A stretch of DNA of 64,000 nt from Bacteroidota bacterium (GTDB taxonomy: Bacteria > Bacteroidota > Bacteroidia > Chitinophagales > Saprospiraceae): assembly GCA_016124585.1 (NCBI GenBank), contig WGNL01000019.1, positions 248,001-312,000 of the forward strand, in the 5' to 3' direction. Below are positions 43,976-50,268 of the stretch, piece after piece. The notes under the pieces were generated by a model. The model made no database searches, had not been told where the DNA came from, and saw only the letters and a list, made by a program, of their open reading frames with translations. Position numbers and translations under genes: made by a program. How positions within the stretch are numbered: the first letter of the stretch is position 1; each line of letters starts with the position of its first letter.

Positions 43976-44001
43976 ATGAAAAAAAGTTAATACCTTCAAT
44001 C

Positions 44002-44979
44002 TTGACCATTTTTTTGGCCATGTTGACAATCCAAGCTGGCTATGCACAGTGCTATCAATTGGGCACTGTTGGACAGATGACACCAGTACTGAAGACAATT
44101 TTGGCGGGTGTTTGTACCAATCCTGCTCAGCCTAGCAGTGTTTGTGATTGCCCTCCTGGTTATGTGGCTGTGGGCTATGAGGGTGAGGAGGGTAACGCTT
44201 GGGGCGGCATGGTGCTAAGCCAGTTCAAACTACGCTGCAAGCAATTGAATTCAAATGGCACATTAGGAGCCACTGTAGTAGTTACCTGCTCCAATGGAAC
44301 TGCGACTGGAGCAACCGTGGATGGCCCAATTGACGCAGCTGCCGGTCAAGCATTGGTTGGAGCTCAGATTCGGATAGGTTGCGCCACAGATGCTGTTTAC
44401 GGTTATTCTAAACCTATAACAGATATCATAGCAGGAGGTGCGAACACCACCAACACTGCCATGGTCAATATCGGAGGAACAGGTGGTAGTGCCCAACCTC
44501 CTATGTATGCCCCCAATGGCAATGTAATCGTGGGCATGCAAACATATATTGATGCAGGCACTGGGGTTACCAACGTCCCTAACGGTACGGTTGGGGTAGC
44601 TTGGAGATATGCACCTATTGTGGCTTGTGCTTCTGCGGTTCCGACCATGTCAGAGTGGGGTTTGATTTTGTTCGCTTTGATCATCTTCACTTTTACCGTG
44701 GTATTTGCGACGCAACAACAACGTGCACGGTCGCTGGCCTTGGCCGGTGAAGGCGCTGTGTCAAATACCCGCCGCCAACGGATTCCTTTCAACAAAGCAG
44801 TTTACCTAAAGGTACTACCGCTGGTTTACTTGGGCTTTGTTTCCTTCTTCGCCATTGCAACCGCCTTTTTTGGCTATGAGATTACTTCCGCTGATATTCC
44901 CGGAAGTTTGCTTTCAGGTGCAGTGATTGCGTATCTCGTACATTTCGTAATTTCTTCTAATAATACGGATAACCACTAA
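44002..44979 (+). CDS. Exosortase substrate with internal VPTMSEWG (IPTL-CTERM-like) signal; start region frameshifted
   Basis: 325 residues if read from the TTG at 44002. A natural start appears to be the ATG at 43976, but its frame hits a stop after four codons (ATG, seven A, GTTAA). Adding one A or removing two joins it to KLIPSILTIFLAMLTIQAGYAQ, a perfect signal peptide. The exported part (about 17-210) is Gly/Thr/Cys-rich with six to eight cysteines and no known domain. VPTMSEWG at 213-220, a hydrophobic helix (LILFALIIFTFTVVFA) and a basic patch (RAR) make the tripartite signal recognised by exosortase H. Unusually, 80 further residues with two more hydrophobic helices follow. The exosortase gene lies 172 bp downstream. 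Confidence 0.72.
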   Translation: MTIFLAMLTIQAGYAQCYQLGTVGQMTPVLKTILAGVCTNPAQPSSVCDCPPGYVAVGYEGEEGNAWGGMVLSQFKLRCKQLNSNGTLGATVVVTCSNGTATGATVDGPIDAAAGQALVGAQIRIGCATDAVYGYSKPITDIIAGGANTTNTAMVNIGGTGGSAQPPMYAPNGNVIVGMQTYIDAGTGVTNVPNGTVGVAWRYAPIVACASAVPTMSEWGLILFALIIFTFTVVFATQQQRARSLALAGEGAVSNTRRQRIPFNKAVYLKVLPLVYLGFVSFFAIATAFFGYEITSADIPGSLLSGAVIAYLVHFVISSNNTDNH

Positions 44980-45151
44980 TTTCTTCGAAGATTTGAAGCG
45001 CAGCAATTATAGTATTGCTGCGCTTCAATTTTCTTGACCACCAAACCACTGTTTTTAATAATCGAGTTTTTAAACTTACTGCGAATAAATACCTCCCCTC
45101 CTACTTTCCACTGCCAAGCCATAAATTGGACATGCAAAGAAATTTCATGTA

Positions 45152-45730
45152 ATGAAAAAGAAATCCAAGCACCCATCAAAGAATATTGCAGCTAATCCGA
45201 TTCAAGTATCACCATCTTCCCTGAAACAAAAACTGTCCTTCCTGAAATTTCTTGCTGCCTTCGTTATCAGCATGGGTTTGTTCTATTTTTTCTATTATTC
45301 TGATTTTTATACGAATACCATCGAAGTGTCATTCATGAATGCACAAGCTAGTCTGGGTAATTTTCTATTGCACCTGATAAGACAGGACACGGTCGTAAAT
45401 GGCTATACCATTAGTGGCAATGGTTTTTCAATTGATATTAAAAAAGGCTGCGACGGTTTGGAGGCAATGGCCATCTTGGCAAGTGGCATCATCATATTCC
45501 CGACCAGCGTGAGATTGAAAGTTCCGGGTTTAGTCTTCGGAATAATCGCTTTGTTCCTCCTGAACTTGCTCCGAATTGCGGGGCTTTACATGATTGGGAA
45601 AAACTGCTCCAATGATTTTTTTGAAATAATGCATTTCCAAGGAGGTTTCATCATATTTACAGCCATTGGTGTTTTGTTTTTATTATCGTGGATGAATTGG
45701 ACAACCACGAAAAGCTTGAAAGCGGCTTGA
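45152..45730 (+). CDS. Exosortase, XrtH-like
   Basis: 192 residues with an N-terminal Lys-rich tail and about five to six membrane helices. The three exosortase/archaeosortase catalytic positions are present in order: Cys100 in KKGCDGLEA, Arg141 in NLLRIAGLY and His161 in EIMHFQGG. These inner-membrane transpeptidase-like enzymes cleave at PEP-CTERM-type signals. The short form and the upstream protein with VPTMSEWG point to the exosortase H branch (IPTLxxWG-CTERM specific); that assignment is from memory of the family and not a search. The next gene overlaps it by one base (TGATG), so the two are translationally coupled. Confidence 0.85.
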   Translation: MKKKSKHPSKNIAANPIQVSPSSLKQKLSFLKFLAAFVISMGLFYFFYYSDFYTNTIEVSFMNAQASLGNFLLHLIRQDTVVNGYTISGNGFSIDIKKGCDGLEAMAILASGIIIFPTSVRLKVPGLVFGIIALFLLNLLRIAGLYMIGKNCSNDFFEIMHFQGGFIIFTAIGVLFLLSWMNWTTTKSLKAA

Positions 45731-46410
45731 TGGCCAAGCCCAAGGCGCCACCAACTGAAATTCATTGGCTTATGAAACCTATCCTCAGATTTGCTACCCG
45801 ATATTTGCTGTTATTTTTAGTGTTGTTCATCTCTCTAAATGGCATTAGTCTGATACCCAAGGTCGGCGCCATTTGCAACCAAATCTACCTGAAACCCACG
45901 GAATCCATTTTAAAAACCATGCTCCCCAAAGCATATCTGCAGCTGAAACCCTCCCCTGAATCGCCCGATGTAATCCGCATCGAATATGCCTCCAAAAAAC
46001 AGGTGGATGAACAAGTTAATGCAGCAAGGACTGCCAAACAAGCGACCACGCCCATTAATGGCATGGAACTAACCATTAAATTCTATAATACCTTCTTGGT
46101 TCTCTATATTTTCTTAATAACACTGACGCTTATATCTCCGGTCTCTTGGAAAGATAAAGCATATAATCTCATTATTGGCTCCGTATTATTCTATTTATAT
46201 AAAACCCTTAAATTATACCTGCTTTGTTTGGTCACATTTGCGCACCCAAATATAGGTATATACCATTTATCGGATTTCTGGTACAAGGCATTTCAAGCGA
46301 TACTTTCCTTTCTTGCCGTGGGGACAGACATGGTCGTCGTCCTCGTGCTTTGGGCAATGTTGACATTTCGAAATAAGAAATGGGGTGAGTTACTGAAGCC
46401 CAAAGGATGA
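45730..46410 (+). CDS. Exosortase-associated membrane protein
   Basis: 226 residues from the ATG at 45730, whose A is the last base of the exosortase stop codon (TGATG); a longer frame from 45688 is less likely. About four membrane helices: residues about 25-45 (LLLFLVLFISLNGISLI), 115-135 (TFLVLYIFLITLTLI), 145-165 and 190-215. An extracytoplasmic segment lies between the first two (about 50-110). No catalytic motif is visible. The coupling implies it acts with the exosortase, as a processing or recognition partner. It is not a family I can name with confidence. Confidence 0.75.
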   Translation: MAKPKAPPTEIHWLMKPILRFATRYLLLFLVLFISLNGISLIPKVGAICNQIYLKPTESILKTMLPKAYLQLKPSPESPDVIRIEYASKKQVDEQVNAARTAKQATTPINGMELTIKFYNTFLVLYIFLITLTLISPVSWKDKAYNLIIGSVLFYLYKTLKLYLLCLVTFAHPNIGIYHLSDFWYKAFQAILSFLAVGTDMVVVLVLWAMLTFRNKKWGELLKPKG

Positions 46411-46606: not shown

Positions 46607-47770
46607 ATGATAAAAAACAAATACGGCCCACCTGTTGAAGGAGAAGACTTTTTCGGAAGAGAGAGGGAGACAGAATATGCCTGGCAACGCCTTTTGGACG
46701 GAAACAATGTCATGTTCCCGGCACCCCGGAGGGTAGGGAAATCATCTTTTGCCAAAAAGCTGCTCGCTGTCGCAAAGAAGGAAGGCTGGGACACGCTGGA
46801 AATCAACCTTGAAAAAGTACACACTGAGGAAGCGTTTCTGGAACTTTTTCTCGAAAAACTCAAGGGCATGAGTTGGTGGGAACGGGCAAAGGAAAAAGCG
46901 TCAAACCTTTTGGACGAGGTAAAAAGTCTAAAGCCCAAGTTCAAATACGAGGGTGTCGAAGTTGAACTGGAATGGCAGCAAAACCGGGCTGATATTTACA
47001 AAGCCATCAGCGACCTGCTTGACCACGACAAGCCCACGCTTATTTTTTTCGATGAATTGACCGTGCTGCTGAACAGCATCGTGACGACGAACAGCCGGAA
47101 AAACGAAGCTGAAAACTTCCTGCACTGGCTCCGTGGCATACGACAGACAAGTGGCACCAAGATTCGCTGGATTTTTTGTAGTTCCATTGGCATTAGCAAT
47201 TTCACTTTTTCCCACCAAATCACAGATGCCATCAACGACGTACCAGAATATAAACTGCTGGCATTCGACCCCGATACAAGTCTTCGCTTGATAAAAGCCC
47301 TGGAAGAAAGCACCAGTATTGAACTGACCGACGAAATCCGGCAGGCCATGCTAGACAAGATTGGTTACCTCTTACCGTTTTTCATACAAATCCTCTTTGA
47401 AAGAATCAATTCGTCAATCAAGGTGGAACAGGCCAAAGTGGACGAAAACTTGGTGGCCAATGCCTACCAAGACCTCCTTGACGACGCCCACCTGAACACT
47501 TGGATTGAGCGTCTTCAAAAGCAGTATGGCGATAAAATTGACGATGCCTTTGCCCTACTCCGACACGTTTGCCAAGAAAAGAAAGGCACTAAGCGAGACA
47601 ATCTGCTCAACTTAATGCAGAAGCGACATGACGCTGACAAAGCCGAACAACACTTGAGCGCCCTCCTGCACATGCTCCGCAACGACGGCTACCTCATCGA
47701 AGAAGGTGGCCTGCATTTCTTCCGTTCACCACTCATCCGTGATTTCTGGTACAAACGCCACGTATTATGA
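46607..47770 (+). CDS. STAND-like P-loop NTPase (first gene of the pair)
   Basis: 387 residues. The N-terminal EGEDFFGRERETEYAWQRLLDG is the usual lead-in of AAA/STAND ATPases. The P-loop is APRRVGKSSF (Lys45) and Walker B is KPTLIFFDELTVLL (Asp149-Glu150). A sensor segment KIRWIFCSSIGISNF follows. The C-terminal 140 residues are helical and end in a winged-helix-like region (HLSALLHMLRNDGYLIEEGGLHFFRSPLIRDFWYKRHV). No effector domain is visible. Its stop overlaps the start of the next NTPase (ATGA), so the two are translated together. Function unknown; signalling or defence is inferred from the family. Confidence 0.8.
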   Translation: MIKNKYGPPVEGEDFFGRERETEYAWQRLLDGNNVMFPAPRRVGKSSFAKKLLAVAKKEGWDTLEINLEKVHTEEAFLELFLEKLKGMSWWERAKEKASNLLDEVKSLKPKFKYEGVEVELEWQQNRADIYKAISDLLDHDKPTLIFFDELTVLLNSIVTTNSRKNEAENFLHWLRGIRQTSGTKIRWIFCSSIGISNFTFSHQITDAINDVPEYKLLAFDPDTSLRLIKALEESTSIELTDEIRQAMLDKIGYLLPFFIQILFERINSSIKVEQAKVDENLVANAYQDLLDDAHLNTWIERLQKQYGDKIDDAFALLRHVCQEKKGTKRDNLLNLMQKRHDADKAEQHLSALLHMLRNDGYLIEEGGLHFFRSPLIRDFWYKRHVL

Positions 47771-50268
47771 ACCTACCCACTTCCAATCCACGACCCATCA
47801 TTCCTTTATCGTTCAATATCGGTTTCAGCAAGGACGAGGACATCGAGCGCATTTTCGTGACCCGATTGGGCATCTTCCAATACCTGTTTGAACAGATTGT
47901 TGCGGAGCAACCCAATAGCATCCCGCAGCATCACCTCGTCATTGGGGAGCGGGGCATGGGCAAGTCCACACTGCTGCAGCGCATTGCTGTAGAGCTTCGC
48001 AAACCGGAATACAGCGACGCCTTCCTGCCGCTCACATTTCCCGAAGAGCAGTACAATGTAGACCGGCTCTCCAAGTTTTGGCTCAACTGCCTAGATGCCC
48101 TCGGCGACGCTCTAGATCGCCGGGAGGACAAAAATGGGCTGGATGAACTGGACGCCAATATCAACCAATGGGAAAAACATGGTCGGAACATCACGGCCTT
48201 GGAAATGTACGGCCATTTTGAGGTGTGGAGCAAGCGGTTCAACCAGCGGATAGTGTTGCTGGTGGACAACCTGAACCTAATTTTTGGTAAAATCAGCAAG
48301 GAGGAACAGCACCAGTTGCGCTCCATCCTCATGCAGAACGGTGCGCCAATACTGGTCGGGGCCAGCGCCCATTCCATTGAGGAGGTGGTGGACTATGGCG
48401 CCCCGTTTTACGATGCCTTCAAAGTACATACGTTGAAAAAACTCAGCTTTGAAGAAGTATTGGACACCCTAAAAAACCTCGCCAACATTACTGGCAACCC
48501 TTCGCTCATAAATAAAATATACGCCAACCGAGGGCGGCTAAGGGCCTTGTACACGCTCACAGGCGGCACGCCCCGTACCCTGACCATGCTCTTCCCGCTC
48601 ATTCAAAATGACTTCTCCATCAATATCCAAACTGACTTGGAAGCGATGGTGGATACCGCCACTGCGCTCTACAAGGCCCGCTTCGAGGAGCTATCGGAGC
48701 AGATGCAGGTCATCGTGGATGCCATAGCCCTGCACTGGGATCCCGTTCATCTGGAAACCCTTCGGGAAATCACCCACTACGAAAACTCGACCCTTTCTCC
48801 CCAAATCAAACGCCTCTACGACACGGGCTGGCTCAACCGCCTCGATGCTTACAAGGCCAAGGGCAGCTCCTACGAAATCAGCGAGCGATTCTTCAATATC
48901 TGGTACCTGATGCGCCGCAGTAGCCGCCGCCGGAAGCGGGAACTCGTCTGCCTCACCCGTTTTCTGAATATGCTCTATGCCGAGGAACTGCCACAGATGG
49001 CCCGCAAAATGCTGAAAGGTAGCATGGAACACGCTGACCATGCAGCGCTGCATTTGGCGATGGCGGATGCGGTGAAGTCGAAGAAACTTTCAAAGGATTT
49101 AAAAGAAAGGGCTTATGGGTATTTGATGGATAGGGCGGTGGAGGATGATAGCGTTTTGAGGGATTTTGAGATACCGGAAAAAGTAGTGAATAGAAAAGTG
49201 GATGAACTGACAAGCCTTGCTATAAATGCACATGATGAAATGGATTATGAAAAAGGAATACTTTTTTTGAATCAAGCACTCAAATTAAACGCTGGTGATA
49301 AGTATGTTTGGTATTTAAGGGGCATTATGAATACAGGAATTGGCGATTATTATTTAGCAGAAAAAGATTACCGAAAATCCATTGACCTTGACAGCAAATA
49401 TAGCTCACCATGGAATGGTCTTGGCAATCTTTTAAGAGATAAAATGAATCGTTTTGATGATGCTCAACAAGCATATTCTAAAGCCATCGAATTGAAACCA
49501 AGTGATGCTCTGCATTGGTATAATTTAGGAAAGCTCTTGCATTTTGATTTGCATCGCTATAATGAAGCTGAGGCTGCTTACCAAAAGGCAATAAAATCCG
49601 ATTTAGATGATCCATTTATTTGGGTATTATTTGGTGATTTGAATGCTTTAAAATTGAAACAGTATGATAAGGCGGAAATGGCTTACAAAAAAGCAATCGA
49701 ACTTAATATTGAGACACCATACACTTGGAATGCTCTTGGTAACTTGTGCCAAGATGGTCTAAAAAATTATCAAAATGCTGAAAACGCATATAAAAACTGT
49801 TTAAAAATATTAGAAGATAAAACAATTCCTATCCACAACCTCGTCTTCCTCTACCGTGACAAAATGTCCCTCATGGCCGAGGCCAAAGCCCTTTTTGAAA
49901 CCCTAAAACCCGAAGAAGGCATAGCAGATAGCTACTATTTAAACGCCGCCCTCTTCGCCTACTACGACAAAAACCTCGGCATCGCCGCAGAAGCAATCAA
50001 GAAGGCATTGGAAGGAATAGACGGCGAACTGCCAGACCAAACCGAAGACGACTGGTGGCGCTTCGCCGCTGTGGCGCATAACTTGGGCGTCGGGCAGGAG
50101 GTGCTGCGGGTGTTCGAGGAGACAGGGCATCATGAGCAGTTGCGGCCCTTCTATGTAGCCATTCGGGCGCTCATGGAGCCAGATGCACAGTATTACCTGA
50201 ACAGCGTAGCCTTGGAAGTGCGGGAAGCAGCAGCCATTGTGATGGAAAATATTAAACGATATTTGTGA
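47767..50268 (+). CDS. STAND NTPase with TPR repeats (second gene of the pair)
   Basis: 833 residues. P-loop GERGMGKST (60-68), Walker B RIVLLVDNLNLIF (Asp167), sensor region APILVGASAHSIEEV, then a helical/winged-helix part (about 260-400; GGTPRTLTMLF, YDTGWLNRL, YEISERFFNIWYLMRR). From about 480 to 690 there are five TPR repeats (AWxxLGNL..AEAAYQKAIK pattern), and the C-terminus (690-833) is helical. In STAND proteins TPRs sense a ligand and the NTPase oligomerises. The TPR-coding stretch 49200-49850 is only about 33-37% GC in sampled lines while both flanks are 50-67%, so the sensor appears to have been exchanged. No nuclease or other effector seen. Confidence 0.8.
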   Translation: MNLPTSNPRPIIPLSFNIGFSKDEDIERIFVTRLGIFQYLFEQIVAEQPNSIPQHHLVIGERGMGKSTLLQRIAVELRKPEYSDAFLPLTFPEEQYNVDRLSKFWLNCLDALGDALDRREDKNGLDELDANINQWEKHGRNITALEMYGHFEVWSKRFNQRIVLLVDNLNLIFGKISKEEQHQLRSILMQNGAPILVGASAHSIEEVVDYGAPFYDAFKVHTLKKLSFEEVLDTLKNLANITGNPSLINKIYANRGRLRALYTLTGGTPRTLTMLFPLIQNDFSINIQTDLEAMVDTATALYKARFEELSEQMQVIVDAIALHWDPVHLETLREITHYENSTLSPQIKRLYDTGWLNRLDAYKAKGSSYEISERFFNIWYLMRRSSRRRKRELVCLTRFLNMLYAEELPQMARKMLKGSMEHADHAALHLAMADAVKSKKLSKDLKERAYGYLMDRAVEDDSVLRDFEIPEKVVNRKVDELTSLAINAHDEMDYEKGILFLNQALKLNAGDKYVWYLRGIMNTGIGDYYLAEKDYRKSIDLDSKYSSPWNGLGNLLRDKMNRFDDAQQAYSKAIELKPSDALHWYNLGKLLHFDLHRYNEAEAAYQKAIKSDLDDPFIWVLFGDLNALKLKQYDKAEMAYKKAIELNIETPYTWNALGNLCQDGLKNYQNAENAYKNCLKILEDKTIPIHNLVFLYRDKMSLMAEAKALFETLKPEEGIADSYYLNAALFAYYDKNLGIAAEAIKKALEGIDGELPDQTEDDWWRFAAVAHNLGVGQEVLRVFEETGHHEQLRPFYVAIRALMEPDAQYYLNSVALEVREAAAIVMENIKRYL

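Follow-up and report, generated by a model that had tools for sequence, protein, structure and literature searches.

The Locus and Its Mid-Protein Sorting Signal

Why does an exosortase substrate carry its sorting signal in the middle of the protein, and what is the role of the part that follows it? This question is raised by a three-gene locus (positions 43976–46410) in a 64,000-nucleotide stretch of DNA, hereafter the window, from Bacteroidota bacterium GCA_016124585.1 (contig WGNL01000019.1, contig positions 248,001–312,000; genome of 6.63 Mb in 45 contigs, completeness rating 100%). The locus contains the genes of an exported substrate, an exosortase and a partner membrane protein, all on the + strand. 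According to the comparative analysis presented here, it fairly probably represents a four-part, exosortase-H-like sorting system consisting of the enzyme, a pseudo-enzyme partner, the signal and a two-helix tail subunit that would dock the signal helix. Both the tail domain and the exosortase-like nature of the partner had been missed in an earlier note on this DNA. The features of the locus were as follows:

43979..43985, + strand: run of seven A (A7) directly 3' of ATG 43976, read from the sequence
44002..44979, + strand: substrate open reading frame (ORF), 325 amino acids (aa) from TTG 44002, with TTG 44014 and ATG 44020 as alternative starts
44002..44046, + strand: putative signal-peptide core ending GYA/Q, residues 1–15, assigned by eye
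44047..44637, + strand: exported domain, residues 16–212, without a family match of its own
44638..44661, + strand: sorting signal VPTMSEWG, residues 213–220 (TIGR04174, 22.7 bits, cut-off 20.5)
44656..44712, + strand: first membrane helix after the signal, residues ~219–237, predicted by hydropathy
44722..44781, + strand: basic linker, residues 241–260, read from the sequence
44779..44967, + strand: two-helix tail domain, residues 260–322, homologous to stand-alone small proteins of relatives
45152..45730, + strand: exosortase, 192 aa (Cys100 at 45449–45451, Arg141 at 45572–45574, His161 at 45632–45634)
45730..46410, + strand: partner membrane protein, 226 aa, 3–4 membrane helices, putative remote exosortase homologue lacking the catalytic Cys

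Homology and Conservation of the Tail Domain

The substrate had been described as a secreted protein with VPTMSEWG, a helix and a basic patch; all of these elements are present, but the helix and the patch do not form its end. From VPTMSEWG to the stop there are 113 residues, comprising the helix, the basic linker and ~65 residues with two further hydrophobic helices. The window substrate consequently falls outside the IPTL-CTERM definition (a C-terminal motif, helix and basic patch), its signal being mid-protein. The signal exceeded the cut-off of TIGR04174, as listed above, and remained below that of Pfam PF18203 (18.6 bits, cut-off 20.8).

A BLAST comparison of the window substrate with 41 neighbourhoods containing 42 further enzymes (40 stronger enzyme places from a search of the order and locus L034 of a metagenome-assembled genome) showed that its last ~60 residues match small stand-alone ORFs. 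In relatives, these stand-alone tail genes encode 63–125 aa. When 21 fused tails were aligned with 11 separate ones, they formed one family with the pattern PFxKxxFxKA, helix, YGxxTxxDIxG and a helix with AYLxHLL; the 161-aa fused fragment L066 was left out of the fused-substrate alignment. Among 52 tails, Asp was retained in 49 (Asn in the other 3), Tyr in 49 and His in 41, and the net charge of the inter-helix loop was zero or negative in all 52, with a mean of −1.33. Searches with the tail against NCBIfam and Pfam gave no convincing match, the scattered ones obtained being to single members (best E = 0.0082 and 0.0019, respectively), and comparison with PDB sequences gave one match (E = 0.23). 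The tail was also considered as a relative of the enzyme or of the partner; this was rejected, as profile comparison with each of the two gave no match.

Co-Occurrence of the Tail, the Enzyme and the Partner

The window enzyme used as a query matched 47 of the 198 genomes of the order, with 27 genomes at E ≤ 9e-15 and 20 at E ≥ 8e-8. The tail profile matched 27 of the 198 genomes, identical to the 27 with a strong enzyme match, and the partner profile matched 28, namely, the same 27 and G155 with a weak match (E = 7.5e-4), these positives being partly by construction, as discussed below. The 20 genomes with weaker enzyme matches (E from 8e-8 to 1e-3) presumably contain other exosortase types; neither a tail nor a strong partner match was observed in them. 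Across the phylum, a search of 395 genomes detected the tail in three, which all belong to the family of the window genome, with up to 15 candidates scored per genome. Genome G190, which belongs to the same genus, gave no match to the enzyme, substrate, tail or partner; thus, the locus is patchily distributed.

These data bear on the simplest alternative, according to which the locus is an ordinary dedicated exosortase-H-like system and the two extra helices are a mere membrane anchor for the stub or the uncleaved protein, with no role in recognition. This explanation agrees with the match of exosortase models to the window enzyme, with the finding that the genome has a single enzyme match and a single signal and with the existence of dedicated systems, as described in the part of PMC3237569 that was available; moreover, tail-less substrates of relatives carry the same signal, which indicates that a substrate need not itself carry the tail. 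Nevertheless, we consider it rather unlikely: in relatives, the tail is encoded by a conserved gene of its own close to the enzyme or the substrate, it was found, among the 198 genomes searched, only in the 27 with a strong enzyme match, and its Asp and Tyr are each retained at the frequency given above.

The Tail in cis and in trans

The arrangement of tails was assessed by comparing 150 listed signal places (of 176 matched) with 89 tail places. In 13 genomes (G000, G022, G065, G076, G085, G098, G099, G110, G116, G128, G138, G142 and G154), 55 of 56 listed signals had an in-frame tail 40–60 residues downstream. In seven others (G001, G031, G041, G044, G158, G179 and G192), this was found for 1 of 87 listed signals, and a stand-alone tail was present in six of the seven. 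The 26 tail-less signal proteins in the fetched loci, chosen by a filter for motif and hydrophobicity, end 32–41 residues from the signal start, and fused tails begin 41–57 residues from it, about where the tail-less proteins end. Separate tails were located directly before the enzyme (L035, L036, L038, L049, L053 and L068), between the substrate and the enzyme with an overlap of the substrate stop (L045 and L073), beside the substrate (L037, L040 and L072), beside the enzyme on the opposite strand (L054) or on another contig (G041 and L117).

Phylogenetic analysis of the tails showed that the fused/separate state requires six changes, four of which are forced by starred branches (rows L058, L115 and L122 were unlabelled). 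On the exosortase tree, in which rows L050, L051 and L070 were labelled unclear, the cis/trans label requires five changes; the window enzyme and that of L034, both with fused tails, were grouped at 98/87 and joined six separate-tail loci at 100/99. As judged from these sequence-based trees, fused and separate tail forms interchange. When two parts have repeatedly been fused and separated, this is classically taken to indicate joint function. The tail probably serves as an adaptor subunit, provided either in cis or in trans, a function predicted from its sequence and gene arrangement.

An obligate subunit could also act otherwise than by docking, namely, as a regulator or inhibitor that blocks the enzyme until the substrate has been positioned, or as a factor that loads the acceptor of the cleaved end. 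Co-occurrence and the cis/trans data fit any obligate subunit, and the conserved loop would, according to the predicted topology, lie on the side where the active site is expected. Nothing specific speaks against such a role; however, a docking part was judged a more plausible candidate for fusion to each substrate than an inhibitor, and this alternative is considered distinctly unlikely.

It should be noted that a correspondence between a fused tail and a single substrate, on the one hand, and a separate tail and many substrates, on the other, was ruled out by the fused-tail genome G138, with 16 signals and 16 tails. In G076, three of six tail places were without a listed signal upstream, and two of these were situated at contig ends. 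Two tails were seen in G001: L074, which is fused, and a 188-aa protein with degenerate VPTKFQW (L115); the latter (L115, 2094–2660) might serve as a trans tail. One neighbourhood of G139 (L071, 4304–10071) held, besides two exosortases in opposite orientation, a pair of partner-type ORFs and a pair of fused substrates. Large proteins with FG-GAP/UnbV, subtilase and PKD/SprB/TPR matches were observed beside the loci of relatives (L037, 6316–9669; L035, 1–3708; L047, 1313–5110).

Start Codon and Exported Domain of the Substrate

The substrate start had been placed at 43976, but the ATG there is out of frame with the long ORF: its frame reaches a stop at codon 5, directly past the A7 run, and the substrate frame is in another phase, where the first usual start codons are the three listed above. 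The out-of-frame ATG may stem from misassembly, from phase variation or from a true start that lies elsewhere. A more radical explanation is that the substrate gene is decaying or mis-assembled, the reading frame having shifted at the A7 run and the substrate and tail genes having become joined by chance. Apart from the out-of-frame ATG, it is favored by the overlap of a separate tail ORF with the substrate stop in L045 and L073, which shows that fusion needs little. However, the frame of 325 codons is open, the signal and tail motifs are intact, and in 13 genomes fusion is the normal arrangement, making this explanation highly improbable.

Residues 46–193 of the exported domain showed 37% identity to a module within a 2267-aa open frame of genome G064, which lies outside the 47 genomes with an enzyme match. 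This frame (L123, 5738–12538) reaches the contig end, and its own sorting signal is therefore not visible. An AlphaFold2 model of the exported domain, calculated on a two-row alignment, was of low confidence (predicted local distance difference test (pLDDT) = 37).

The Partner Protein as a Putative Pseudo-Enzyme

The coupling of the enzyme to a membrane partner, described in the earlier note, was seen directly, since the ATG of the partner gene at 45730 shares one base with the TGA of the exosortase gene (TGATG). A partner-type ORF, with 2–4 helices by hydropathy, adjoins the enzyme in 40 of 43 cases; the enzymes without such a neighbour (L041, L050 and L055) are absent from the partner alignment. 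Comparison of the partner and exosortase profiles using hhalign gave a probability of 95.9, an E-value of 5.2e-9 and a score of 59.7 over 127 columns. The similarity was above the controls, which scored 19.9 for the reversed profile and 25.6 on average for 60 block shuffles (sd 7.0, maximum 48.7). The column of the catalytic Cys contained Cys in only one of the 40 partners. At the column of Arg141, 24 of the 40 partners had Lys and four had Arg; the column of Lys123 contained Lys or Arg in 39; the column of His161 was not conserved, and the window's partner happens to carry His there. The predicted model of the partner (pLDDT = 92.5) begins with two helices followed by two strands; next come a helix and a strand, and finally four longer helices and one short helix. 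This arrangement can be interpreted as an exosortase that carries a helical insert. A Foldseek search of this model against PDB returned 259 matches, none at E ≤ 0.001. Taken together, the profile and model data indicate that the partner is probably a remote, catalytically dead exosortase homologue, that is, a pseudo-enzyme subunit.

Downstream of the locus, at 46607–50268 of the window, there are two ORFs with a four-base overlap. The first encodes an AAA-like ATPase of 387 aa, for which every Pfam match was below the cut-off, and the second encodes a protein of 833 aa with TPR repeats above the cut-off and a STAND/AAA-like NTPase part below it.

The Enzyme and Comparison with Known Systems

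The identification of the enzyme as an exosortase with Cys100, Arg141 and His161, made previously from the sequence, was borne out. These residues, which we take to be the catalytic residues of the exosortase/archaeosortase superfamily, were invariant in 43/43 aligned exosortases, and the window enzyme exceeded the cut-offs of the superfamily models (TIGR04178, 55.1 bits, cut-off 23; PF09721, 47.0 bits, cut-off 25.7). A search with exosortase subfamily profiles, suggested at the same time, yielded exosortase H (XrtH, TIGR04177) as the best NCBIfam subfamily. None of the 10 individually scored relatives (57.1–80.2 bits) exceeded the cut-off of this model, 86 bits, and the window enzyme reached 59.4 bits; the best match among all 43 exosortases had an E-value of 1.1e-26, and the best-scoring exosortase may exceed the cut-off. 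Because its score is below the TIGR04177 cut-off, the window enzyme was not classed as XrtH; in terms of sequence profiles, it is a member of the exosortase superfamily that resembles exosortase H most. A search of PDB sequences with the enzyme profile gave no match at E ≤ 0.1.

The previously mentioned link to exosortase H stands for the signal, which is of IPTL type and over the TIGR04174 cut-off, but not for the enzyme as a formal XrtH. The locus shares with the exosortase H/IPTL-CTERM pair the best-matching subfamily, the [IV]PT[LM]xxWG signal and the Cys/Arg/His residues, whereas it differs in the lower score of the enzyme and in the position of the signal, which is not C-terminal. In this last respect, it resembles the family midcut-by-XrtH (NF033207), which, compared by model name alone, has an XrtH signal in mid-protein. 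NF033207 was matched by 21/21 fused substrates at E ≤ 0.1 (best E = 2.8e-7); however, the window substrate reached 25.1 bits against a cut-off of 45, covering model positions 22–70 of 175. In the phylum sample, NF033207 was over the cut-off in 0/296 genomes and below it (E ≤ 0.001) in 8/296. Matches below the cut-off were observed outside the order in G218, G300, G377, G381 and G397; the search of the phylum for the tail, which may or may not have included these five genomes, reported none outside the window's family.

A comparison of the partner with known exosortase-associated families, also suggested earlier, gave no match for the window partner. This includes NF041730 (exosortase H-associated membrane protein, cut-off 35), which by its name is likewise a membrane protein accompanying XrtH; the model was matched weakly by 3 of the 40 partners (best E = 0.0014). 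No genome of the 296 sampled had NF041730 over the cut-off, a weak negative, since few sampled genomes hold the system.

Among more distant systems, the rhombosortase/GlyGly-CTERM pairs, as presented in the available part of PMC3237569, are similar in having a single target gene beside the sorting enzyme and differ in that the enzyme is of rhomboid type, with neither a tail nor a pseudo-enzyme mentioned in that part. Archaeosortase A belongs to the same enzyme superfamily, has a tripartite signal and couples cleavage to lipid anchoring, but its signal is C-terminal, unlike the mid-protein signal of the window substrate (PMC7157517, in the portion available). A search of plasmids for named XrtH members found three Methylomonas plasmids (27–30% identity; two annotated XrtM and one unannotated), and a plasmid search with the enzyme of L044 gave no match. 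In the literature searched, which covered few subscription papers, no description was found of the tail or the exosortase-like partner as subunits, nor of how exosortases recognise signals or whether they act alone. The system is thus an exosortase-H-like variant with two candidate subunits, the tail and the partner, not found described.

One Substrate Beside the Type IX Secretion System

The earlier note had described the locus as dedicated to one substrate and had suggested a search of the whole genome for further signals. In this search, the window signal was the only place over the TIGR04174 cut-off. A degenerate DNA pattern of the signal likewise had one match in the genome (0 when read backwards), and the window enzyme had one match, other exosortase types not being searched separately. 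A second signal-like place (C19:146866) was set aside, being below the TIGR04174 cut-off (13.0 bits, E = 1.44). The description therefore holds for this genome but not for the family. Across 27 genomes of the enzyme branch, the number of TIGR04174 matches at E ≤ 0.05 ranged from 0 to 36, a threshold that misses the VPTMTQWG signals of G093, G123, G143 and G167, for which the count is 0. Because genomes of relatives hold up to 36 matches, "dedicated" applies to this genome rather than to the family as a whole. A sorting enzyme with a single target is in itself an already described category (PMC3237569, in the part available).

The suggestion that two surface-sorting routes coexist was also confirmed: next to the one exosortase signal, the genome contains at least 150 signals of the type IX secretion system (T9SS), found as Por_Secre_tail matches, and the rows listed were all over the TIGR04183 cut-off. 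This count is a lower bound, since 448 candidates were found and 150 scored, all 150 of which matched. The locus is thus a second, sparsely used sorting route next to a heavy T9SS load.

Proposed Mechanism and Significance

In the four-part system that we favor, the signal peptide would direct export of the substrate, and the helix following VPTMSEWG would retain it in the inner membrane. The tail would form a hairpin in this membrane whose loop faces the outer side, on which the active site of the exosortase should lie, and would dock the signal helix onto a complex of the enzyme and the partner, the latter, catalytically dead, probably pairing with the enzyme. Cys100, Arg141 and His161 would then, as expected from the family, cut at the signal, and the exported domain would be freed or passed to an acceptor. 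With the tail built into the substrate, as here, the helix and the tail would remain in the membrane after the cut; in several relatives, the tail is a separate protein beside many tail-less substrates.

A number of observations weigh against this proposal. Cleavage and the contact between tail and enzyme are both deduced rather than observed, and the relationship of the partner to exosortases is remote and comes from profile comparison. The charges flanking the tail fit the positive-inside topology partly (N flank positive in 37/52 tails, C flank zero or positive in 39/52). The co-occurrence of tail and partner with the enzyme is partly by construction, because 22 of the 27 genomes supplied rows of the tail profile (all but G041, G093, G122, G146 and G154) and 26 supplied rows of the partner profile (all but G146); its informative part is the 171 negative genomes, in each of which up to 31 tail and up to 15 partner candidates were scored. 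The division into fused and separate types is also imperfect: G122, G139 and G146 are mixed, with a tail at three of seven listed signals; in G099 and G041, a fused and a separate tail occur together; and G001, with 24 listed signals that lack a tail, has no clean stand-alone tail. Finally, the tail tree is built on 63 columns, its deep forks are weak, and the bootstrap had not settled.

A broader proposal, which we put forward tentatively as a fair possibility, is that exosortases of this branch, rather than acting as single enzymes, are membrane complexes of an active enzyme, a dead homologue and a two-helix adaptor, with the adaptor repeatedly switching between a subunit shared by many substrates and a disposable piece that is fused to every substrate and stays behind in the membrane whenever one is cut. 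The tail, in cis or in trans, and the Cys-less exosortase-like neighbour are concrete, testable candidates for missing exosortase subunits, and the operons are small enough for transfer to a laboratory host.

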